Notes under the pieces: model-generated
The model's database searches: none
Told to the model about the DNA's origin: nothing
What the model saw: only the letters and a program-made list of their open reading frames with translations
Translations under genes and position numbers: made by a program
Shown: positions 1 through 8,450 of the stretch, piece after piece
Position numbering within the stretch: position 1 is the stretch's first letter
Layout: every line of letters begins with the position of its first letter
Assembly: GCA_017533545.1 (NCBI GenBank)
Contig: JAFXHW010000151.1
Span: 1 to 8,450 of the forward strand
Source of the DNA: Clostridia bacterium
Lineage (GTDB): Bacteria > Bacillota_A > Clostridia > Oscillospirales > CAG-272
DNA length: 8,450 nt
Direction: 5' to 3'

Positions 1-6
1 AGTTTC

Positions 7-25
7 GCCTTTGTATTACAAAGGC
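7..25. other. short perfect hairpin at the left edge
   Basis: GCCTTTGTA (7-15) and TACAAAGGC (17-25) are exact reverse complements separated by one base. An overlapping alternative stem pairs GGCTT (23-27) with AAGCC (34-38). There is no following T-run on either strand, so it is not a clear terminator. It may be the end of a structured intergenic region or part of the neighbouring repeat. The gene it would belong to lies outside the window. Confidence 0.35.
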
Positions 26-48
26 TTCGGGCAAAGCCCATACCCCTT

Positions 49-123
49 GTAGGGCGGGGGTTTACTCCCGCCGCCTTATTGGCTTAAATCTTTCATTACG
101 GCGGGAGCAAGCCCCCGCCCTAC
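49..123. repeat. 75-bp GC-rich inverted-repeat (MITE/REP-like) element
   Basis: The first 25 bases (49-73) and last 25 bases (99-123) are reverse complements with two mismatches. The outermost 12 bases, GTAGGGCGGGGG and CCCCCGCCCTAC, match perfectly. The 25-base centre (74-98) is A+T-richer. There is no ORF and no transposase. The design, with TGTAGGG-type outer ends and a hairpin-forming body, matches the element at 8354-8437. Both are probably members of a dispersed non-autonomous intergenic repeat family. Mobility is inferred. Confidence 0.7.
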
Positions 124-134
124 GATGTAGCACC

Positions 135-163
135 ATTATAACACAAATCGGCAGAGAAAACAA
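135..163 (-). promoter_or_regulatory. possible extended -10 promoter reading leftward
   Basis: On the minus strand TTGTTT (158-163) is followed after exactly 17 bases by TATAAT (135-140), with a TGT just before the -10 (extended -10). It overlaps the hairpin at 148-175 and would read into the inverted-repeat element and out of the window. The hexamers are good, but A+T-rich intergenic DNA produces such matches by chance, and no downstream gene is visible. Confidence 0.25.
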
Positions 164-175
164 GTTCTCTGCCGA
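148..175 (-). terminator. probable intrinsic terminator for mazG
   Basis: TCGGCAGAGAA (148-158) pairs perfectly with TTCTCTGCCGA (165-175), giving an 11-bp stem with a 6-base loop. It lies 67 bases beyond the mazG stop on the minus strand and is followed there by TTTGTGTTAT, a weak U-rich tract. The position and strong stem fit termination of mazG. The interrupted U-tract lowers confidence. Confidence 0.55.
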
Positions 176-242
176 AGTTTTGTGACTGCTAATCCTCCGC
201 TAAGAATGCAGGGAGAAAAGGCAGCCGCTTTTGTCTTAAAAA

Positions 243-890
243 TCACTTTTGTTTTTCCACAAATCCGTCGCAATATTTTGCGAGTATCTCCTCGGCATCG
301 TAGCCGTTCTTTTCGGCAAGGGCGCAAAGATCGAAAAGCTTTTTTGCGATATCATCCTTGTCGGCCTTCTCGTCGGGCATTGTGTATACGTTCGCCTTTG
401 CCGACTTTTTGGCGATCTTCTGTGCACGCATCAGCGAGGGGAGCGACTTTGCGATGCCGTCGAGGATCTCGTAGGTGCTTTCTCTCTTTTTCGTTTCCTG
501 CTTAATCTTTTCCCAGTTGACAAGCACCTTCTCGGCATTGTCGGCTTCAACGTCACCGAATATATGCGGATGACGTACGATGAGCTTCGAGCAGACGTCG
601 TTGCAGACGTCGTCAAATACGAATTCGCCGTCCTCCTCGCACATTTTCGCGTGGAAAACGATCTGCAAAAGCACGTCGCCAAGCTCCTCACGCATCAGAG
701 TGCTGTCTGCGTTGTCGATAGCCTCGACCACCTCGTAGGTCTCCTCGATAAAGTTTTTGCGAATGCTCTCGTGGGTCTGCTCACGATCCCACGGACAGCC
801 GTCGTCTGAGCGCAGAATGCTCATAATTTCAAGCAGATCGTTTATGTCGTAGCGCTCTTTTGTGAGTAATTTTTTAGCTCTGTCGGTCAT
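243..890 (-). CDS. mazG: MazG nucleoside triphosphate pyrophosphohydrolase
   Basis: This is a 215-residue MazG-family house-cleaning enzyme that hydrolyses (d)NTPs to NMP and pyrophosphate in the cytoplasm. The N-terminal MazG domain is clear: GCPWDREQTH (31-40), the EExxE metal site (E49, E50, E53) and EELGD (68-72), followed by RHPHIFGD (106-113), WEKIK and a KSLPSLMRAQKI helix (149-159). I chose the ATG at 890 because AAGGAG lies just upstream. The in-frame ATG at 956 would add 22 residues with no ribosome binding site. The protein is shorter than the roughly 260-residue E. coli type. Its second MazG repeat is shrunken and lacks both EExxE and EELGD, so only the first domain should be catalytic. 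The gene is transcribed away from the SleB-like gene and probably ends at the hairpin at 148-175. Confidence 0.95.
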   Translation of the reverse strand: MTDRAKKLLTKERYDINDLLEIMSILRSDDGCPWDREQTHESIRKNFIEETYEVVEAIDNADSTLMREELGDVLLQIVFHAKMCEEDGEFVFDDVCNDVCSKLIVRHPHIFGDVEADNAEKVLVNWEKIKQETKKRESTYEILDGIAKSLPSLMRAQKIAKKSAKANVYTMPDEKADKDDIAKKLFDLCALAEKNGYDAEEILAKYCDGFVEKQK

Positions 891-991
891 CTTTTGCTCC
901 TTGATATTTATGTGAAAATTTAAAAAAACATATCCGTTTTTCGCGCAAATTTCCATGAATGTATCGCGCTTTTAAAACAAAAAATAGCGAT

Positions 992-1339
992 ATGAAAAGA
1001 TTATTTGCAATTTTAATTATAATCGGCGCATTGTCGGGTGTATGTGTCAATGCGCTGACCGAAACGCCCAAGACCGAGGTGTCACGCGGGGATGTTTATC
1101 TTCTTGCGCGGCTGATCACCGCCGAATGTGACGGGCGGGACTGGACCGAGATGGTGATATGCGGCGCCGAGTGCGTCGAGCGGACAAAAAACGGCTATCA
1201 TTGCACCACCATAGCGGGAGTCATTTTCGAAGAGGGACTTTACGAATCGGTGTCGAACGGCAAAATTTACAATATCCCGACCGTTCTCGCCATTCGCGCC
1301 GCCGAGGAGGCGCTGCTCGGAATGCTCTCGGAGGGCTGA
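992..1339 (+). CDS. SleB-like cell-wall hydrolase, C-terminally incomplete
   Basis: This is a 115-residue secreted protein. It has a signal peptide (MKRLF, then a hydrophobic core, with likely cleavage near residue 21 after VNA) and the front half of a SleB-type (Hydrolase_2) domain. Family landmarks are the YLLARLITAE block with candidate catalytic E45, GAECVERTKNGY (58-69), TIAGVIFEEG (73-82), SVSNGKIY (86-93) and the AAEEALLG helix (103-110). SleB-family enzymes are lytic transglycosylases acting on spore cortex or vegetative peptidoglycan. The usual final 30-40 residues after the 'ALNG' helix, including the FxNP-type segment, are missing. The TGA at 1337 is not bypassed by an obvious frameshift. 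I chose the ATG at 992 because it begins the signal peptide; an in-frame ATG at 959 adds 11 residues. Neither has a good ribosome binding site. It may be a decayed gene or a short variant. Confidence 0.65.
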   Translation: MKRLFAILIIIGALSGVCVNALTETPKTEVSRGDVYLLARLITAECDGRDWTEMVICGAECVERTKNGYHCTTIAGVIFEEGLYESVSNGKIYNIPTVLAIRAAEEALLGMLSEG

Positions 1340-1418
1340 TTTTATCCCTTACACTCCAATTATAATATCCGATAGTTACGACATTGTTCAAAAAGTGTAA
1401 ACAAATATGCGTAATGCC

Positions 1419-1447
1419 TTGACTTTTGCTGTCGGTAACGATACAAT
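1419..1447 (+). promoter_or_regulatory. sigma-A promoter of cdd
   Basis: TTGACT (1419-1424) and TACAAT (1442-1447) are separated by 17 bases, one mismatch each from consensus. The predicted start near 1454 leaves a leader of about 26 bases containing GGAGG (1469-1473) before the cdd ATG at 1480. This makes cdd independently transcribed from the upstream SleB-like gene. Confidence 0.8.
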
Positions 1448-1479
1448 CGAATTGTAGAAACTATTGTTGGAGGATAAAA

Positions 1480-1857
1480 ATGACCGACAGAGAGCTTTAC
1501 GAAATGGCACTTGAAGTGTCCCAAAATGCTTATGCACCCTATTCGAATTATTTTGTCGGAGCGGTGCTCGTTTGCGATGACGGAACGCTTTATACCGGAT
1601 TTAACATCGAAAACGCATCCTTCGGAGCAACCGTCTGCGCCGAGAGGGTAGCTCTGTTTAAGGCCGTTTCCGAAGGAAAGAGAAGATTCACCGCTATTGC
1701 CGTTGCATCGGCAAGGGAGGAAAACTGCTCGCCCTGCGGAATATGCCGTCAGACTTTAAGCGAGTTTGCGCCCGATCTTTCAGTAATATACAAATGGAAG
1801 GGCGAGGTCGTCAAAAGGCCGCTTAACGAAATTTTGTCCGATTCGTTCGTTATGTGA
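1480..1857 (+). CDS. cdd: cytidine deaminase
   Basis: This 125-residue protein has the size and motifs of the homotetrameric cytidine deaminases, which convert (deoxy)cytidine to (deoxy)uridine in pyrimidine salvage. Visible features are AYAPYSNYFVGAVL (17-30), the FNIENASFGATVCAER block (41-56) with zinc ligand C53 and proton-shuttling E55, and PCGICRQ (85-91) with zinc ligands C86 and C89. All catalytic residues are present. The ATG at 1480 follows GGAGG with 6 bases between and begins the conserved domain. The in-frame upstream ATG at 1426 lies inside the promoter, so I rejected it. It is a stand-alone gene with its own promoter, and the next operon starts from a separate promoter about 40 bases downstream. 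An A/T-rich palindrome at about 1858-1873 is too weak to call as a terminator. Confidence 0.96.
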   Translation: MTDRELYEMALEVSQNAYAPYSNYFVGAVLVCDDGTLYTGFNIENASFGATVCAERVALFKAVSEGKRRFTAIAVASAREENCSPCGICRQTLSEFAPDLSVIYKWKGEVVKRPLNEILSDSFVM

Positions 1858-1898
1858 CAAAAAATATTTTTTCCCCGACATCAAACGCCGCCTTTCAG

Positions 1899-1927
1899 TT
1901 GATTTCGACTTTAAAAAATGTTATAAT
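1899..1927 (+). promoter_or_regulatory. strong promoter of the vWA/PP2C/kinase operon
   Basis: TTGATT (1899-1904) is followed after exactly 17 bases by a perfect TATAAT (1922-1927), preceded by TGT (extended -10). Transcription would start near 1934, leaving a leader of only about 17 bases that consists of an A-run and the GGGGGG ribosome binding site (1938-1943). The leader is too short for a riboswitch or attenuator, so any control must act at the promoter. Confidence 0.8.
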
Positions 1928-1950
1928 TATAAAAAAAGGGGGGATATGAC

Positions 1951-2469
1951 TTGGAAAGGGCAGCAAATATAAGAAGACCGCAAAAGCTTAAAAGACACAG
2001 CAGGCGAAAAGGTGCTGCTGCAGACCGACGCGAGTACATAATCGACTGGTATTCGGTATCTTTGGCTTTTATCTCCCTTTTGACTTTACTTTTGGGGGCG
2101 CTGCCCTCGGTTGAGGTGATATCCTTTGACAAAACGGTCGCCTTTTTCGATTTTATACAGTATTTGCCACATGCATTTGCGATCTTTGCGATAATCGCGC
2201 TCTGTTCGGTGATACTCAATACGATATTTGCATTCATCGCCTCTGTCCCGAGACTCTTCTGCACGGTTTTGAGCGGGTTTAGCCTTGTTTCAACCGTTGT
2301 GACTCTGCTTTCGGCCGATATGCGTCTGATCGGTTACAGCGACGGCGGGTTTTTGATGCACGGACTTAATTACACACTCTCAATACCGATAATTCTCCTT
2401 TTGAGCTTCGCTTCGCTTTCGTTAAGCGTGCTTTCCTATCTTCGGGAGCGCGATGAGCGAGTCGAATGA
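1951..2469 (+). CDS. four-TM membrane protein of unknown function, first gene of the operon
   Basis: I do not recognise a family for this 172-residue protein. It has a strongly basic N-terminus (many Arg/Lys in residues 3-28) followed by four hydrophobic segments at about 33-53, 73-98, 102-121 and 140-164. It ends in a short charged tail (RERDERVE). By the positive-inside rule both ends should be cytoplasmic. The start is TTG: GGGGGG (1938-1943) lies 7 bases upstream, and the nearby ATG at 1945 opens a frame that stops after eight codons. It lies directly under the operon promoter. An 88-base gap, with no visible terminator, separates it from the vWA gene. Its place at the head of a phosphorylation module suggests a membrane partner or signalling component, but that is inference from context only. 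Confidence 0.75.
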   Translation: MERAANIRRPQKLKRHSRRKGAAADRREYIIDWYSVSLAFISLLTLLLGALPSVEVISFDKTVAFFDFIQYLPHAFAIFAIIALCSVILNTIFAFIASVPRLFCTVLSGFSLVSTVVTLLSADMRLIGYSDGGFLMHGLNYTLSIPIILLLSFASLSLSVLSYLRERDERVE

Positions 2470-2557
2470 TCCCGAATCAAGCAAAAAAAGGAACATTTTA
2501 ACAAAAAAATCGTCTGAATTAATATTACGGATATATAAAAATACGGAGGGAAAAATC

Positions 2558-3247
2558 ATGGCTTCCAATTATAAGATCAAATACAACGTAGATATGGTGT
2601 TTGTCATAGATGCTACCGGCAGTATGGACAACATTATTGATATAGTAAAGCAGAACGCGCTCAATTTCTACACCGACGTAACCGATGCGATGACACGAAA
2701 GAGAAAGGTGATCGACACCTTGCGCATCAAGGTCATCGCCTTCCGCGACTACATAGCCGATGGCGCCGATGCAATGCTCTCCACCGATTTTTTCACTCTG
2801 CCCAACGACGAAGCGGAATTTTCCAATACCGTCAATGCCATTGAGGCGATCGGAGGGGGCGACGATCCCGAGGACGGACTTGAGGCGATCGGATACGCTA
2901 TCCGCTCGCAGTGGAACCGCGAGGGAATGAAGCGCCGCCAGATCATCGTCGTATGGTCGGATGCTCCCACTCACGAGCTTGGAGCCGGCGCGGCTAATCC
3001 CGGTTACCCCAAGAAGATGGCAAAGACCTTTGACGAGCTTTCCCGCTGGTGGGGCAACGGAGAAATGCCCTCCGAATACATAGACAACGACGCCAAGCGC
3101 CTTGTTTTGTTTACACCCGAGGCCGATTGGTGGAATTCGATAGTCAACACCTGGAACAACGTCTACCATATCCCCACGCTTGAGGGTCAGGGACTGCGCG
3201 AGCACGGATACGAGCAGATGATCGAGACTATCACCAACACTATCTGA
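2558..3247 (+). CDS. vWA (von Willebrand factor A) domain protein, TerY/vwkA-like
   Basis: This 229-residue cytoplasmic protein is essentially one vWA domain. VDMVFVIDATGSM (11-23) holds the MIDAS metal site as D18-x-T20-x-S22, a DxTxS variant of DxSxS. AFRDY (61-65), GGGDDPEDGLEAI (99-111) and IIVVWSDAPTHELG (129-142, with D135) follow. The FRDY, GGxDxPED and DAP motifs recall vWA domains of the Dictyostelium vwkA type. There is no signal peptide or TM segment. The ATG at 2558 follows CGGAGGG with good spacing; an in-frame ATG at 2453 overlapping the previous gene has no such site. Only 10 bases separate it from the PP2C gene. vWA proteins next to a PP2C phosphatase and a Ser/Thr kinase form the TerY-P-type triad, where the vWA is thought to be an adaptor or phosphorylation target. 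A weak alternative promoter (TTTAAC-17-TAATAT, 2497-2525) might add transcription. Confidence 0.92.
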   Translation: MASNYKIKYNVDMVFVIDATGSMDNIIDIVKQNALNFYTDVTDAMTRKRKVIDTLRIKVIAFRDYIADGADAMLSTDFFTLPNDEAEFSNTVNAIEAIGGGDDPEDGLEAIGYAIRSQWNREGMKRRQIIVVWSDAPTHELGAGAANPGYPKKMAKTFDELSRWWGNGEMPSEYIDNDAKRLVLFTPEADWWNSIVNTWNNVYHIPTLEGQGLREHGYEQMIETITNTI

Positions 3248-3257
3248 TCTTGCTTTT

Positions 3258-4193
3258 ATGAAAAATAGAAACGATTCGATCCGCCTTGCCTCTTTTGCGG
3301 TGTCGGGTGAAATGGTCGAGGGACGGGGAGAGGACTCAAAATTGATCCTTATTTCGCCCGAGCGGCACGTCGGACGCGCCGTCCTGGCCGTCTTTGACGG
3401 ATGCGGAGGACTTGGCGCGCGGCGATACCCGTCGGAGGGTGACGCGAGCGGCGCATATATCGCCTCCCGCCTTGCCGCCGAAACGCTGAGAGGTATCGCG
3501 ATAGGCGATGAGATATCGCCCGAGCTCTACGAAATGGCGCTCAAAACCACCTTCAAGCGTGAAAAAGCGCGTCTTGACGCTCTCAACGGCGAGCTTAAAT
3601 TCCGTTCCGATATGGTAAAAGCACTTCCCACCACAGCCTGCGTTGCAACCGTTGAAAAATCGACCTGCTCGGTCATGTGGATAGGGGACAGCCGCCTTTA
3701 TACGCTTGACAACGGCGGACTTCATATACTCACCTCCGATGACGGATTGCAAAATAACGGCGATGACTACATAAGCGACAGCCGCCTTTACGGATCTGTC
3801 AATGCCGAGGACGATTTTGTCTTCTTTTCGCGGCAGGTATCTGCAAGATTGCCGCGAGTCTGGATAGTTGCAAGCGACGGCTTTTACGAATCATTCCGCA
3901 CTCCGATGGAGATGGAAGAGTTTTTGCTTTCCTCCCTTATGGAGTCTGCCGACAGCCGCGAATGGCGTGAAAACATCAGAGCGCGTGTCGACGAATGTGC
4001 ATCCGACGATTATACCGCAGTCTTTTTGATCTCGGGTTACCCCAGCTTTCAGACGCTCAAAAAGCGGCTTTTACTGCGTGCAAAGCACATATCGAAAAGG
4101 GTAAAGGAGCTTTCCCTTTGCGAGGGCGAGGAGTTCGAAGAATTGGCGCGAGGAATTTGGAAGGATTACCGCCGCGCATTTATTCAGTATTAG
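3258..4193 (+). CDS. PP2C-family Ser/Thr protein phosphatase
   Basis: This 311-residue protein is a metal-dependent protein phosphatase that removes phosphate from Ser/Thr in cytoplasmic targets. The PP2C motifs appear in order: GRGEDS (22-27), AVFDGCGG (44-51, the family's VFDGHGG with Cys for His), PTTACVATV (124-132), WIGDSRLYTL (141-150), LTSDDG (158-163), VASDGFYES (204-212) and SDDYTAVFL (249-257). The acidic metal ligands (D26, D47, D207, D250) are all present, so it should be active. A basic, coiled-coil-like tail (about 264-311) follows the domain and has no assigned role. The ATG at 3258 is 10 bases after the vWA stop and lacks a Shine-Dalgarno sequence, so translation probably depends on coupling. 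It most plausibly opposes the downstream kinase, acting on the vWA protein or the receptor. Confidence 0.92.
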   Translation: MKNRNDSIRLASFAVSGEMVEGRGEDSKLILISPERHVGRAVLAVFDGCGGLGARRYPSEGDASGAYIASRLAAETLRGIAIGDEISPELYEMALKTTFKREKARLDALNGELKFRSDMVKALPTTACVATVEKSTCSVMWIGDSRLYTLDNGGLHILTSDDGLQNNGDDYISDSRLYGSVNAEDDFVFFSRQVSARLPRVWIVASDGFYESFRTPMEMEEFLLSSLMESADSREWRENIRARVDECASDDYTAVFLISGYPSFQTLKKRLLLRAKHISKRVKELSLCEGEEFEELARGIWKDYRRAFIQY

Positions 4194-4233
4194 TTTTACA
4201 AAAACAAAAACATTTTGATCGGTCGTGTTATAA

Positions 4234-5153
4234 ATGGAAGAAAAATATATAGGCAAATACCGTTTGACAACTGACCTTCGCGGTCAGAACAGCGGCAACG
4301 CCCGCTGGGGGTTTTGTACATATAATTCAAATGAATATTTTATAAAAGAGTTTATCTCTCCCGTCTACCCTGAGGCGTCGGCTCCCATATCCGACGAGGT
4401 AAGGGCGGCGCTGATACGCGAATGCTCCGCATTTGAGCAGCGCAAAAACCGCCTTTATACTGCGATAAATGCTTCGACTAACGGTAACATTATCGGTATT
4501 CGCTCGTTTTTCCGCTTCAAGAGCAGGTATTATATCGTGACCGAGAAGGTGGAAACGGGTAAGACCAAGGTCAGCGAGATTGCCGAGCTGTCGATGGAGA
4601 AGAAGATAATCCTTTTGCGCGTCCTGCTGTACAGCATTCGCTGTATTCACGATGCGGGCATCGTGCACGCCGACATAAAGCCCGATAATCTTATCTTAAA
4701 GCCCACGCAAAACGGCTATTACACCCTGAAGCTCATCGATTTCGATGCCAGCTTTTTCGAGGACGATCAGCCGAAAAACAGCGACGATATCCACGGCGAT
4801 CTTTCATACCTTGCACCCGAAACTTTCCTCAGAATCGCGGGTGAGAATAAAAAGATCACAAGGAAGGCGGACATTTTCGCTTTGGGTATCATCTTCCATG
4901 AATTTCTGACGGGCGTTCGTCCGAGAATGTCGGGTGATTACGATTATCTTTACGAGGCGGTGCTTGACGGCGGCGATATCGGTATATCCAACCGCCTGCC
5001 CCTGCCCATTCATCCCTTATCCGCCGCATGCTCGATATCGATCCGAAAAAGCGTCCGTCGGCGGCAGATATTTTTGATTATTTCGGCGAAAAGACTTCAG
5101 AGAGATCGGGCGACGAAGGAAAGCATTTTTCCCGCGACAGCTCGCTGGACTGA
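4234..5153 (+). CDS. eukaryotic-like Ser/Thr protein kinase, frameshifted near the 3' end
   Basis: This Hanks-type kinase reads in one frame for 261 codons, then needs a -1 correction. Visible motifs are a loose glycine loop (GQNSGNARWG, 17-26), FIKEF with K38, HADIKPDN (145-152, HRD replaced by HAD), LIDFD (168-171, DFG replaced by DFD), GDLSYLAPE (188-196) and ADIFALG (212-218). After IHP (259-261) the frame as written gives a non-kinase tail ending at 5226. Adding one base to the CCC run at 5014-5016 restores LIRRMLDIDPKKRPSAADIF, the standard final kinase helix, and a stop at 5151-5153. The intact product would be about 306 residues. The break may be a real mutation or a homopolymer sequencing/assembly error. 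There is no TM segment, so the kinase is cytosolic. The ATG at 4234 has no clear ribosome binding site and lies 40 bases after the PP2C gene. It is the presumed partner of that phosphatase. Confidence 0.88.
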
Positions 5154-5171
5154 TAACATAAAAAATACTAC

Positions 5172-5203
5172 GAAAGGAGCGCTTTGCGCGTTGATGCATA
5201 ATG
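5172..5203 (+). promoter_or_regulatory. distant ribosome binding site with intervening hairpin
   Basis: GAAAGGAG (5172-5179) is the only Shine-Dalgarno-like sequence before the zinc-ribbon/Big2 gene, but it ends 21 bases before its ATG (5201). Between them GCGC-TTT-GCGC (5179-5189) can form a small stem, which could shorten the effective spacing or tune initiation. Upstream in-frame starts are excluded by TGA at 5192-5194. A ten-codon ORF starting with the ATG at 5194 also uses this site. Confidence 0.4.
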
Positions 5204-7426
5204 GCTTGGAAATGTCCCAACTGTGAAACCTTAAATCAGGGCAAAAAATGCATAGTGTGCAATTGTACCATGCCCCGAAGCGCAAAAAAGAAGGGTAAGG
5301 GTCAAAAGCGCAGACAGAATATAAAACCGCTGATAATTGTCGTTGTATGCGCCATTGCCGTTGTGGCACTGGTGCTCGCACTGGCGCTGTCACAATCAGA
5401 CGAAACGGTAAACCCCAATATTGACACTACGACTGCGCAAAACGATGTGACCACATCCCCCGACGTAACGCTTGACAGCGATACCGAGCCCGACGTCACA
5501 ACGAGCGAAGTTGAAGATACAACAGCGATATCGCATGATACAACCGCCGAAAGCGAAAGGGTCGAAAGCGAAACAAGCGACGGCGAGGTGGGCATAAAGA
5601 GCGTATCGCTCGACATCACCGAGCTGACCATAAAGTCGGGCGAGAGCGTAAAGCTTAACGGAAGCATCCGCCACGTGGGCAACGTAGATCTGTCGGTCAA
5701 ATGGGCATCGTCCGATACAGATATTGTTAATGTTACCGCAAACGGAATAGTTATCGGCGTAAAAGCGGGCAGCGCTGTTGTTACGATGACAGCATCCAAC
5801 GGCATGAGTGCAGAGTGCCGTGTTACCGTTGAGCCGAGCGAGGTTCTCTATATCACTCTTTCAGCAGCATCGGTAAATCTCGAGGTCGGTTCGGGCAAGA
5901 CGATAAATGTAAACGTATCTCCTGCCGATGCAATAAACGGCGATGTTGAGTGGGAGATATCAGACGAAAATATTGTAATGCTTACCGATGCATCCGATAC
6001 ATCGGTCGTAGTTGTCGCACAATCGGCCGGCGAGGCCACGCTTACTGCCAAGACGTCGAACGGCAAGAGCGCAAGCTGTAAGATCACCGTTACTGAAGCA
6101 GCCGTAAAGGCAGAATCGATCGAGATAGACGAAAAAACTGTCAACCTTCGCGAGGGCGACGAGCACAAGCTGAACGTTACCGTCCTTCCTGCAAACGCCA
6201 CCGATGTGAAGCTGACATATACAAGTTCTGACGAAGAGGTCGCCGTCGTTGATGAAAACGGCAATATCACCGCCAAAAAGATGGGCAGCGCCGTTATCAC
6301 GGTTAGCACCGAAAATTCAATTAAGGCAAGCTGTACGGTAAACGTCAAGGCGGAAAAGGTAGAGGCGCTGGTGCTTTCCGAAAGTCAGGTCACCATGAAG
6401 GTGGGCGACGTTTACACCATAACCGGCCAGACCATTCCCGAGGGATTCACCATTCTCTGGACGGTGTCCGATGACAGCATTATCAGTACGATAGGCGGAC
6501 GGATTTATGCCATCTCTCCCGGTGTTGCCACTGTATATGCATATGCATCCGACGGAGTGAGTGCCACCTGCACGGTTACTGTCGAAAGTCCCGTTTTGCC
6601 GACATCTGTTTCATTTGAAAGCAATCGCATAAGGCTTGATGTCGGTCAGACACATACATTCAAAATCAGTCTTACACCTGATGATTCCGTTGCCGCACTT
6701 ACTTTTACATCCAGCAACGATGAAATTGCAACGGTAGATGAAAAAGGTGTGCTGACGGCGCACAAAGAGGGCGTTGTCGCGGTAAACGTCAAGACATCTA
6801 ACGGCATTTCGGCCATGTGCATAGTTGAGATCGGCAATGGCGGAGGTGCATCTGCGGAAAGCGACTTTGCTTACAGCTACAACGTAAAGGGAATAACGAT
6901 AACCGACTACGTCGGTGCGTCTGACAGAGTTGTGATCCCTGAAAAGATCCATGGCAGTCCCGTAACAGCTATCGGCGCGGGCGCGTTTATCGACAAGAGC
7001 GTTGTGTATGTCAAACTTCCAAACAGTGTTGATTTTATAGGCGAATATGCCTTTGCAAATTGCCATGATCTCGTTTCGGTAGACTTTGGCTCGTCACTTT
7101 ATCAGATTGATGCACATGCATTTTTGAATTGCTCCAATCTTGCCGATCTGTCGCTGCCCGACAGCGTTTCAAAGATCGGTGTGGGTGCCTTTGAAAACTG
7201 CAGTTCGCTTGTTTCGGTAAAGATTCCCGATCAGATAAGGGAAATCGCATCGGCGTTGTTCAAGGGCTGTACATCGCTTGCCGAGATTACCGTGGGGATG
7301 CAGGTCAACAGCATCTCGAATGATTCCTTTGACGGATGCTCTGAAAATCTGGTTTTCATATCTCCCGAGTATTCCATGGCATCGAATTTCGCTAAGCTAA
7401 ATGGATTTGAAGTTAAAAATCCGTAA
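5201..7426 (+). CDS. zinc ribbon - TM - five Big2 - LRR_5 (BspA-type) surface protein
   Basis: This 741-residue protein has a bipartite design. Residues 3-20 (W3, C5, C8, N12, C17, C20) form a zinc-ribbon/RanBP2-like finger. A basic stretch (29-42) precedes one TM helix (43-64), so the finger should be cytoplasmic and the rest outside. A Thr/Asp/Ser/Glu-rich linker (65-130) leads to five Big2 Ig-like domains at about 132-214, 215-301, 302-386, 387-465 and 466-546. Each ends in an S-A-x-C-x-V-x-V-like strand with a single Cys (206, 293, 378, 457, 540). A leucine-rich-repeat domain of LRR_5/BspA type (about 557-741; AFxxCxxLxxVxxP-like units) completes it. There is no LPxTG signal, so the TM helix is the anchor. 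Such ectodomains usually bind proteins or glycans. As last gene of the kinase operon, ending just before a strong terminator, it is a candidate sensor. Ligand and signalling role are inferred. Confidence 0.93.
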   Translation: MAWKCPNCETLNQGKKCIVCNCTMPRSAKKKGKGQKRRQNIKPLIIVVVCAIAVVALVLALALSQSDETVNPNIDTTTAQNDVTTSPDVTLDSDTEPDVTTSEVEDTTAISHDTTAESERVESETSDGEVGIKSVSLDITELTIKSGESVKLNGSIRHVGNVDLSVKWASSDTDIVNVTANGIVIGVKAGSAVVTMTASNGMSAECRVTVEPSEVLYITLSAASVNLEVGSGKTINVNVSPADAINGDVEWEISDENIVMLTDASDTSVVVVAQSAGEATLTAKTSNGKSASCKITVTEAAVKAESIEIDEKTVNLREGDEHKLNVTVLPANATDVKLTYTSSDEEVAVVDENGNITAKKMGSAVITVSTENSIKASCTVNVKAEKVEALVLSESQVTMKVGDVYTITGQTIPEGFTILWTVSDDSIISTIGGRIYAISPGVATVYAYASDGVSATCTVTVESPVLPTSVSFESNRIRLDVGQTHTFKISLTPDDSVAALTFTSSNDEIATVDEKGVLTAHKEGVVAVNVKTSNGISAMCIVEIGNGGGASAESDFAYSYNVKGITITDYVGASDRVVIPEKIHGSPVTAIGAGAFIDKSVVYVKLPNSVDFIGEYAFANCHDLVSVDFGSSLYQIDAHAFLNCSNLADLSLPDSVSKIGVGAFENCSSLVSVKIPDQIREIASALFKGCTSLAEITVGMQVNSISNDSFDGCSENLVFISPEYSMASNFAKLNGFEVKNP

Positions 7427-7430
7427 ATTA

Positions 7431-7468
7431 AAACAGCGTTCTTGTCTTAAAAAGAACGCTGTTTTTTT
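7431..7468 (+). terminator. intrinsic terminator of the signalling operon
   Basis: AAACAGCGTTCTT (7431-7443) pairs perfectly with AAGAACGCTGTTT (7452-7464), a 13-bp stem with an 8-base loop, and a run of seven T (7462-7468) follows. It begins 4 bases after the stop of the Big2/LRR gene. This is a textbook Rho-independent terminator closing the five-gene operon and separating it from the spore coat gene. Confidence 0.95.
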
Positions 7469-7478
7469 GCGCCTTCGA

Positions 7479-7507
7479 TTATAAAAACGGAATATGTGTA
7501 CATAATA
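7479..7507 (+). promoter_or_regulatory. possible sporulation-sigma (sigma-G-like) promoter
   Basis: CATAATA (7501-7507) fits the sigma-G -10 pattern CATNHTA, and TTATA (7479-7483), 17 bases upstream, matches four of five positions of GHATR. No convincing sigma-A promoter lies between the terminator and the coat gene. A sporulation promoter is expected for a coat-type gene, but coat genes more often use sigma-E or sigma-K, so this is tentative. Confidence 0.3.
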
Positions 7508-7546
7508 AATGTGACGGACATTTCCGAATCGAAAGGAGATAGAAAA

Positions 7547-8014
7547 ATGAATTTAACCCAAAAGGAAACAATGCTTTTAAACGATCTTAAGGGTCAGGAG
7601 CAGCTTTGCATTGAAAAGTATTCGCGATACTCTTCCGAGGCCTGCGACGGCAATCTCAAAAATCTTTTCACCGATATTGGCAATATCGAAAAGTCGCATC
7701 TTGATACCATCAATTCGATGCTCAACGGCACCTTTACTCAGATGAGCGGTGGCGGCAGCCAGTCGAACGCGGCAAGTTATATCGCGGTGTCGAGCTGCAC
7801 CGGATGCCAAAAGGACAGCGACGCATATCTTTGTGCCGACGCGCTCGCGGGCGAAAAGCATGTTTCCGCCCTTTACGATACCTGCGTTTTCGAGTTTAGT
7901 GACGTCAATATGCGCGACGCGCTCAACCATATTCAGAAGGAAGAGCAGCAGCACGGCGAAAAGATTTACGCCTATATGGCGAAAAACGGAATGTACCCCT
8001 GCGAGGGGCAATAA
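7547..8014 (+). CDS. CotF-like spore coat protein (ferritin-like fold)
   Basis: This 155-residue protein matches clostridial 'Coat F' spore coat proteins: MNLTQKET start, LLNDLKGQEQLCIEKYSRYS (11-30), LKNLFTDIGNIEKSHLDTIN (37-56) and a second helical pair ending HIQKEEQQHGEKIYAYM (128-144). These proteins adopt a ferritin-like four-helix bundle and are found in the spore coat of Bacillus and Clostridia. Here two ExxH motifs (E48-H51, E133-H136), plus E18 and E103, keep the spacing of a diiron carboxylate site, so metal binding is possible. The ATG at 7547 follows AAAGGAGA with normal spacing; an in-frame ATG at 7496 has no ribosome binding site. The stop lies in the first unit of a tandem repeat. 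Losing one G from the run at 8005-8008 would extend the protein through GNN(A/G)P repeats to 8072, so the tail may be truncated by frameshift. Confidence 0.85.
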   Translation: MNLTQKETMLLNDLKGQEQLCIEKYSRYSSEACDGNLKNLFTDIGNIEKSHLDTINSMLNGTFTQMSGGGSQSNAASYIAVSSCTGCQKDSDAYLCADALAGEKHVSALYDTCVFEFSDVNMRDALNHIQKEEQQHGEKIYAYMAKNGMYPCEGQ

Positions 8015-8104
8015 CGCTCCTGCGGAGGGCAATAACGCTCCTGCGGGAGGCAACAACGGTCCCTGCGGGTGACAATAACGGTCCCTGCGGGGGGCAATAA
8101 CGGA
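7996..8104 (+). repeat. 21/22-bp tandem repeat, five units, at the coat gene 3' end
   Basis: CTGCG starts recur at 7999, 8020, 8041, 8063 and 8085, so units are 21, 21, 22 and 22 bp plus a last partial one. Each unit carries a G-rich run followed by GCAATAACG (or a one- or two-base variant) and CTCC or GTCCC. Read one frame away from the coat gene, units encode (E/G)GNN(A/G)P(A/C) repeats, open until the TGA at 8070-8072. Removing one G from each of the runs at 8005-8008, 8067-8069 and 8089-8094 would keep the repeat open from the coat domain to a TAG at 8105-8107. Repeats with G-runs are prone to slippage. Confidence 0.8.
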
Positions 8105-8120
8105 TAGATGTCACCCTTAA

Positions 8121-8132
8121 TCTGCATGCAGA
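8121..8132. other. 12-bp perfect palindrome
   Basis: TCTGCATGCAGA is its own reverse complement. It lies between the tandem repeat and the structured element, with no gene immediately downstream. It could be a protein-binding site or chance; nothing else supports a function. Confidence 0.25.
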
Positions 8133-8156
8133 CACACGAAGAGATTTGTGGGATAG

Positions 8157-8275
8157 TGGGAATTCGAGCGCAGCGAGAATTCTATAAACACCCGAAGATA
8201 TATCCGGACAGAAGGATATTCGCTGCTTTTGCGAAGCAAAACCTGTTTCGTTCAGAAACAGGAGGCGAATTCCCA
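8157..8275. repeat. 119-nt multi-branched hairpin element
   Basis: TGGGAATTCG (8157-8166) pairs perfectly with CGAATTCCCA (8266-8275). Three further stems are nested inside: ATATCC/GGATAT (8200-8205 with 8214-8219), TTTTGC/GCAAAA (8227-8232 with 8236-8241) and CCTGTTTC/GAAACAGG (8242-8249 with 8255-8262). The result is a junction with three arms. No convincing protein is encoded on either strand. Because its first 46 bases recur downstream, I read it as a dispersed or tandem intergenic repeat. A structured small RNA is the alternative. Confidence 0.6.
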
Positions 8276-8353
8276 ATGAATTCGAGCGCAGCGAGAATTC
8301 TATAAACACCCGAAGATATATCCAATGAATTCGAGCGACAGCGAGAATTCTAT
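8276..8353. repeat. two partial direct copies of the structured element
   Basis: Bases 8278-8323 repeat 8160-8205 exactly (46 bp, from GAATTCGAGCG to GATATATCC). A shorter third copy (8327-8353) carries one inserted A and ends at TAT just before the next inverted repeat. Both copies are preceded by CCAAT. Each begins with two GAATTC sites 11 or 12 bases apart that can pair. The copies look like truncated duplications, and no gene is visible in them. Confidence 0.75.
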
Positions 8354-8437
8354 GTAGGGGAGGGGTCTCCCCTCCCGATGATGGTATCCAACACAGCATA
8401 CGATCTGACCATGCGGGAGGCGGAACGCCTCCCCTAC
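8354..8437. repeat. 84-bp GC-rich inverted-repeat (MITE/REP-like) element
   Basis: The ends GTAGGGGAGG (8354-8363) and CCTCCCCTAC (8428-8437) are perfect reverse complements. Each end also folds alone: GGGAGGGG/CCCCTCCC (8358-8365 with 8369-8376) and GGGAGGCG/CGCCTCCC (8415-8422 with 8426-8433), both with 3-base loops. The 38-base middle is unstructured and encodes nothing. The layout parallels 49-123, but the arm sequences differ, so it is a related type rather than a copy. CCTAC/GTAGG (8433-8445) at its right edge may begin another hairpin. Confidence 0.7.
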
Positions 8438-8450
8438 GGCGTAGGAATAC

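Follow-up and report, generated by a model that had tools for sequence, protein, structure and literature searches.

Phosphorylation trios beside receptor-like membrane proteins in Clostridia: a variant of the TerY-P triad with a shared C-terminal tail

Known systems and the present locus

Several described gene sets bring together a von Willebrand factor A (vWA) protein, a protein phosphatase and a serine/threonine kinase. In the TerY-P triad these are adjacent genes for a vWA protein, a PP2C phosphatase and a kinase, the kinases being fused C-terminally to a zinc ribbon or an OB-fold according to the available text of PMC11090510. The present work concerns a related set in a Clostridia bacterium (Bacillota_A; Oscillospirales; CAG-272), found in an 8,450-nt stretch of DNA, hereafter the window (GenBank assembly GCA_017533545.1, contig JAFXHW010000151.1, positions 1 to 8,450, forward strand). 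Five same-strand open reading frames (ORFs) at 1951-7426 encode a small membrane protein with four transmembrane (TM) segments, a vWA protein, a PP2C phosphatase, a kinase and a Big2/LRR protein, and the ORF calls bear out the genes and order given in a first-pass annotation of this DNA. The whole is read here as a phosphorylation switch of the TerY-P kind, to which exchangeable membrane receptors would be coupled via zinc fingers and Asp-bearing C-terminal tails, a reading that we place slightly on the probable side.

As in the TerY-P triad presented in the available text of PMC11090510, a vWA protein, a PP2C phosphatase and a kinase are encoded next to one another in this family, all three being recognised in 71 of the 82 loci analysed (order vWA-PP2C-kinase in 39, PP2C-kinase-vWA in 19). 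The trio is common in Clostridia. Unlike TerY-P, however, the zinc fingers here stand on separate, mostly membrane, proteins; a C-terminal CxxC pair indicative of a zinc ribbon was found in none of 78 kinases (an OB-fold was not looked for). The window contains no Ter or nuclease gene, and neither its vWA protein nor its PP2C has a PADLOC match at E<=1, although that library, the one used for this comparison, includes a TerY model (PDLC02224). The system is a variant of the TerY-P triad, in which the trio is present and two tested features of that family were not found.

Other described systems share parts of the arrangement. In Sulfolobus, a protein with a RanBP2 finger can assemble with a vWA protein, a kinase and a phosphatase into a complex whose formation is phosphorylation-dependent (available text of PMC6509490 and PMC7472852). 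This ArnA/ArnB/ArnC/PP2A network resembles the present system in its RanBP2-type finger, its vWA with an intact metal site, and a kinase and phosphatase that control assembly. It differs in that the finger is joined to an FHA domain rather than to a TM segment and outer domains, the phosphatase is PP2A rather than PP2C, ArnB has extra domains, and no shared tail is noticeable in the available text. Pfam listed no FHA domain on the receptor-like protein of the window, which does not show the Arn pairing of RanBP2 finger and FHA. Actinobacterial GAP1-N2 systems likewise have a kinase (often with a zinc ribbon or TM segment), a PP2C and a stand-alone vWA in adjacent genes, but they belong to GTPase-centred conflict systems, and surface receptors are not mentioned in the available text (PMC7159879). 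The YegI, PphC and YegL genes of Escherichia coli (kinase, PP2C and vWA) also lie near one another; the alignment of vWA profiles, however, extends over no more than 14 columns (probability 31), and no Pfam kinase model was listed for YegI at E<=0.01. In the open-access literature searched, neither the zinc-finger membrane partners nor the shared tail and the beta-I-like vWA protein set out below were found described, and an earlier mention in the founding Ter literature is possible.

Related loci and their membrane partners

Homologues of the vWA protein were numerous, 1490 of 2477 candidates matching at E<=1e-3. From the genome collection, 80 loci were retained of 129 confirmed vWA relatives, one of two conserved peptides being required, and distant members were thus missed. 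The retained loci, two plasmid loci and the window, minus L029, make up the 82 loci analysed (cited by L number where needed), in which genes were called by us as long or conserved ORFs. Plasmid records gave six vWA matches, two covering at least 80% of the protein, while two pattern stretches in the viral contigs searched were not confirmed as relatives.

The exact five-gene set recurs, in the order of the window, in one of 79 relative loci (L003, with 76% vWA identity). Some of the absences are uninformative because one flank is short in roughly one locus in five (under 1.2 kb in 15 of 81). L003 thus supports the proposal that a TerY-P-like trio is linked both to a small membrane protein and to a surface protein of receptor-like character, and other receptor-like proteins occur near related trios, namely a PASTA protein in L019 and LRR proteins in L006, L021 and L051. 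Conserved co-occurrence of the exact five families, which the first-pass annotation had offered as the sign of a system, did not emerge, and the four-TM protein has four database homologues. The same annotation had named related trios that never neighbour four-TM or Big2/LRR genes as evidence to the contrary; this largely holds for the exact families and fails for the broader receptor class.

At the level of that class, the association is pronounced. In one count, same-strand genes no more than three positions from the core were set against genes more than four away, with genes between omitted; zinc-ribbon proteins with a TM segment made up 113 of 320 of the former versus 17 of 538 of the latter, and 57 of the 82 loci had one near the core. 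Where the kinase has a type-1 or weak type-1 tail (see below) and both flanks exceed 1.2 kb, 41 of 42 loci have such a protein no more than five genes from the trio, which gives no support to the supposition that this kind of arrangement is unusual in Firmicutes. Of 479 same-strand neighbours up to five genes away, 44 had the more narrowly defined RanBP-like finger (W.C..C...N..C..C), as did none of 654 other genes in these loci. The 40 loci with this finger (of 82) include a Chloroflexota plasmid (L001) and a metagenome-assembled genome labelled Succinivibrionaceae (L069, possibly misbinned).

The domains found on or near the finger proteins vary, Pfam listing PASTA (L019), TPR (L008), WG repeat (L025) and FHA (L060). 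In L019, a finger-TM-PASTA protein lies beside the trio. LRR proteins carry an N-terminal finger in the window and L003, and LRR_5 is accompanied by a C-terminal zinc ribbon in L006. The LRR protein of L021, assigned like that of L051 by a profile built from the window protein, has a signal-like segment, LRR and a TM segment, followed by the tail DWFKSAGDL. Profiles from the window protein matched Big2 or LRR in 8 of 321 genes near the trio versus 1 of 812 far from it; among the eight, that of L019 is better read as PASTA and that of L015 is weak. Receptor coupling is therefore supported by gene context, as a class of partner rather than as a fixed five-gene set.

The shared C-terminal tail

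Many of the kinases end, after a variable linker, in F..[AP]GDL or variants of it. By pattern, 44 of 78 kinases carry this tail in a loose form and 28 of 78 in a strict form, while type-2 kinases have an NGLSRFMK-like end (11 kinases, or 17 by a wider pattern). The tail patterns were written after looking at the loci, and ORFs cut at a contig end were dropped from the tail counts. To lessen the resulting bias, a tail profile was trained on nothing but the C-terminal ends of 120 database kinases, with the different tail types pooled. Among genes outside the core, this profile scored at least 6 bits in 44 of 469 neighbours versus 1 of 623 others, and at 12 bits in 29 neighbours versus none. Its strongest polar position is an Asp.

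At least four of these 44 neighbours are kinases or a piece of one, namely a TIR-kinase in L009, second kinases in L077 and L080, and a 100-amino-acid (aa) piece of the split kinase of L011. The remainder include zinc-ribbon proteins, multi-TM proteins and one LRR protein. Proteins of one neighbourhood that are unrelated in other respects thus have the tail in common. The TIR-kinase fusion (L009, 8520-9929) lies directly upstream of its trio, and the second kinases (L077, 7515-8576; L080, 5533-6717), which are divergent, stand beside theirs with the same tail.

The strict tail followed by a stop was also sought in the DNA of 34 genomes (94.9 Mb) chosen from tail-bearing loci (32 of type 1, with L027 and L082 classed as other), where it occurred 32 times, against once in a reversed control. 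Since the genomes were chosen for the tail, the recovery of core kinases was expected and the informative part is the scarcity of matches elsewhere. As we read them, the matches comprise 16 core kinases, one second kinase, one contig-edge copy, nine other operon proteins (one being the L021 protein) and five ORFs of 8-59 aa elsewhere, four of which look like chance. Eighteen genomes of the other clade (17 type 2 and L044; 53.4 Mb) gave a single match, a 10-codon ORF. The longest of the stray ORFs, of 59 aa and located around position 1500 of L122 on another contig of a system-bearing genome, has an HTH (helix-turn-helix)-like start and ends CFRTAGDL; it is possibly a client encoded outside the operon, or else chance.

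In a vWA tree built by a quick method, a single clade of 20 rows, starred in the tree, holds all 17 type-2 loci. The window and L003 are sisters, grouped with L012 and L013, both of which are finger-bearing; L013 has a type-1 tail, and no tail was recognised in L012. Co-evolution of finger and tail was tried on this tree and was unsupported by independent events (5 usable pairs, median p 1). In the type-2 clade (L037, L058, L062, L047 and others), a divergent neighbouring membrane protein ends in an SRIKSTMG-like motif, a possible phosphosite. By a pattern written after examples had been seen, 13 of 46 opposite-strand genes adjacent to the core carry the motif, each of the 13 in the type-2 clade. 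Elsewhere the counts are 9 of 479 for neighbours, 2 of 77 for kinases and 1 of 608 for far genes (L059, also of the type-2 clade).

Proteins of the window

The vWA protein (2558-3247, plus strand as for all features of the operon; 229 aa) matches Pfam VWA_4 at 37.5 bits (cut-off 27), has no called TM segment, and has a start that fits the family at 2558 rather than 2453. Its predicted model is similar to integrin beta-I domains at 13-17% identity and combines that fold with a set of putative metal-site residues (D18, T20, S22, E105 and D135). Among 81 loci, D18, S22, E105 and D135 are invariant and position 20 is T in 80 and S in one. The Integrin_beta model (PF00362) itself scored 21.0 bits on this protein, below its cut-off of 24.8, while a precomputed match to it exists for some of 120 listed vWA homologues. 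Unlike the integrin domain, this is a bacterial protein without a called TM segment, and any ligand binding by it is putative.

The PP2C-family phosphatase (3258-4193, 311 aa) matches PP2C_2 at 37.5 bits (cut-off 24; E 2.3e-9). The kinase gene (4234-5153) encodes a soluble serine/threonine kinase with a Pkinase match of 89 bits and the motifs HADIKPDN and IDFD, and its frame is broken near 5.0 kb. A profile of related kinases tracks the first frame to that point and another frame thereafter (4980-5153), in which the coding sequence runs to its own stop at 5151-5153 and includes the C-terminal tail HFSRDSSLD (5124-5150; tail-profile score 9.8). An intact database kinase (P0125, 306 aa) shares 99% identity with the query across the 85% of it that is covered and has the same ending. 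The break may be an assembly slip or a recent lesion, a slip being as likely as decay.

The last protein (5201-7426, 741 aa) is receptor-like. It begins with a RanBP-like zinc-finger motif, W.CP.C...N....C..C (5201-5275), followed by a Lys/Arg-rich stretch and a single TM segment called from hydropathy (5330-5386), five Big_2 domains (5606-6838, limits approximate and set by eye) and an LRR_5 region of the BspA type (6965-7342; residues 589-714, 1.8e-32). The PF13306 score of 112.3 bits (cut-off 27.7) and the hydrophobic segment at residue 44 mark it as a BspA-type LRR surface protein. The order of basic stretch and TM segment suggests an N-in orientation, by which the finger would be cytosolic. 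An earlier zinc-ribbon call on this protein holds for the Cys pattern, on which the finger is based, and not for Pfam, which listed no zinc family at E<=1; in a relative from L024 with the same Cys pattern, Zn_ribbon_RanBP was matched at 2.1e-5 and 24.1 bits, below its cut-off of 27.

The four-TM protein (1951-2469, 172 aa, TTG start) has four hydrophobic segments and is unmatched at E<=1 in Pfam, NCBIfam and PADLOC. Its predicted model is poor (predicted local distance difference test score, pLDDT, 50.6), and for that reason no fold is claimed. The window protein shares 32% identity with its L003 homologue, which ends GDFRPPDDLG and has a tail-profile score of 13.2. Among called locus proteins, the family profile matches only these two and thus lends no support to homology of the remaining small multi-TM neighbours. 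As a class, small multi-TM proteins are mildly commoner near the trio (27 of 321 near versus 46 of 812 far).

A proposed mechanism and its alternatives

In the mechanism that we propose, the soluble kinase and the PP2C would set the phosphorylation of cytosolic or membrane clients, as their families suggest. The single-pass protein, with its RanBP-like finger inside and Big2/LRR domains outside, may sense something extracellular, and the vWA protein would serve as the adaptor of the complex. Its beta-I-like metal site would most likely hold the Asp of the F..[AP]GDL-type tail, which is found on the kinase and, among relatives, on membrane partners as well. Such docking would let different receptors plug into one kinase-phosphatase core: the inner finger and the tails would gather kinase, phosphatase and membrane partners on the vWA protein, and an outside signal would shift the kinase/phosphatase balance. 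A bolder form of this idea, in which the beta-I-like vWA reads the tail Asp as an intracellular counterpart of integrin ligand recognition and the tail is a plug-in code that rewires kinase input in Clostridia, is in our estimate speculative and rather unlikely.

Several points weigh against this mechanism. The kinase of this very sequence is frame-broken, and the window's own four-TM protein and receptor lack the tail (profile scores -5.3 and -13.6), while the LRR protein of L051 has neither tail nor finger. Conservation of the vWA metal-site residues is just as strong in the type-2 clade, where the kinases have NGLSRFMK-like ends without the tail Asp, and in L022 and L044, where the kinases lack a tail of this kind; thus the tail cannot be the sole reason for their conservation. 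Likeness of fold to integrin domains shows no function, and the best row of a second structural look was Pactolus, which we take to be an integrin-like domain without metal binding. The finger pattern and the strict-tail pattern were written after the neighbours had been viewed. Further, because the loci were fetched by their vWA gene, the presence of such a vWA near every tail carries no weight as evidence, and because type 2 is a single clade, independent events do not replicate the link between finger and tail.

Of the alternatives, the one that survives best, and for which we see a substantial though less than even chance, is that the tail is a C-terminal signal of another kind, whose reader would be the zinc finger, the phosphatase, a protease or the machinery for membrane insertion. 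The conservation of the metal site where the kinase has no tail fits this explanation, as does the distribution of the RanBP-like finger, which, among loci with both flanks, occurs in 30 of 42 of type 1 or weak type 1 versus none of 15 of type 2. Yet no such finger was recognised nearby in 17 of 43 type-1 loci, and an Asp as the strongest polar position of the tail suits a metal site.

A somewhat less probable alternative, though still a serious one, concerns envelope sensing. In PASTA kinases such as PrkC and PknB, an outer sensor is coupled to the serine/threonine kinase, with a PP2C as partner. The present set could be a split version, with a soluble kinase, the outer sensor on a separate chain and an output in cell-wall metabolism. 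The finger-TM-PASTA protein of L019 speaks for this, and the window kinase has no Pfam PASTA match and no called TM segment, as is the case for TM segments in most relatives' kinases, so that it is not a single-chain PASTA kinase. Sensor and kinase on separate chains, and Big2/LRR in the window rather than PASTA, are nonetheless departures from PrkC and PknB. The PASTA case is a single one, and to our knowledge a vWA protein has no place in PrkC systems.

Anti-phage defence of the TerY-P type, in which the trio would sense infection and shut the cell down or activate a restriction factor, the surface proteins being incidental, seems unlikely. It draws on the protection of P. aeruginosa PAO1 against phages by TerY-P (available text of PMC10889362) and on the company that TerY-P keeps with restriction systems (available text of PMC11090510). 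The tail-bearing TIR-kinase of L009 and the patchy presence of the system, found in 4 of 245 genomes from the order of genome G001 (G001 included) at E<=1e-60, would also agree with defence. The window kinase matches PADLOC kinase models (PD-T4-6 at 1.2e-22, mad6 and MkoA), but these matches are read as reflecting the shared kinase domain, and the vWA protein and the PP2C have none. A scan limited to 20 chosen neighbour proteins listed no nuclease family, and the window flanks are of another character (see below). Finally, a decaying operon with a dead kinase and five genes in chance proximity, for which the frame break and the very narrow four-TM family could be cited, is improbable in view of the intact copy, the sequence kept up to its own stop beyond the break, the same five genes in order in L003, and an assembly slip that is as likely.

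Operon boundaries and flanking sequence

The first-pass annotation had the five genes enclosed by a strong promoter and a perfect terminator. The terminator stands: a 14-bp perfect stem with an 8-nt loop and following T's (7430-7465) folds at -19.4 kcal/mol (z -6.0), with none of 200 shuffles equally good, and was recovered by folding while absent from the consensus-scan list. The promoter-like site, TTGATT-17-TATAAT with TG before the -10 (1899-1927), is weaker than claimed, agreeing with consensus at 10 of 12 positions and being one of 15 scan matches in the window; as shuffled sequences gave 10.0 +/- 3.0, its support is weak. The consensus scan listed no terminator between the end of a cytidine deaminase gene at 1857 and this site at 1899, and read-through into the operon is therefore possible.

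On the 5' side, the operon is flanked by MazG (minus strand), a SleB-like fragment and the cytidine deaminase, and on the 3' side by a coat-F/ferritin-like protein. The SleB-like protein (959-1339) covers only positions 80-165 of a 201-position model and may be truncated. Over the end of the coat-F gene and beyond it, a 20-nt unit is present in five copies at a spacing of 21-22 nt (7997-8102). Within 8160-8437, two identical 46-nt copies 118 nt apart and an imperfect 24-nt inverted repeat (8354-8437) are possibly remains of small mobile repeats; a GC-rich 25-nt inverted repeat at 49-123 (92% complementary) looks like the one at 8354-8437. An Rfam scan of the window gave no match at gathering score.

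Implications

The shared tail offers a way to list likely members of each such system from sequence alone. The outer domains encountered here, Big2, LRR and PASTA, are of the kinds found on wall- and surface-contact proteins. If the receptors are indeed exchangeable, the trio and its partners would constitute a modular sensor family in Clostridia.

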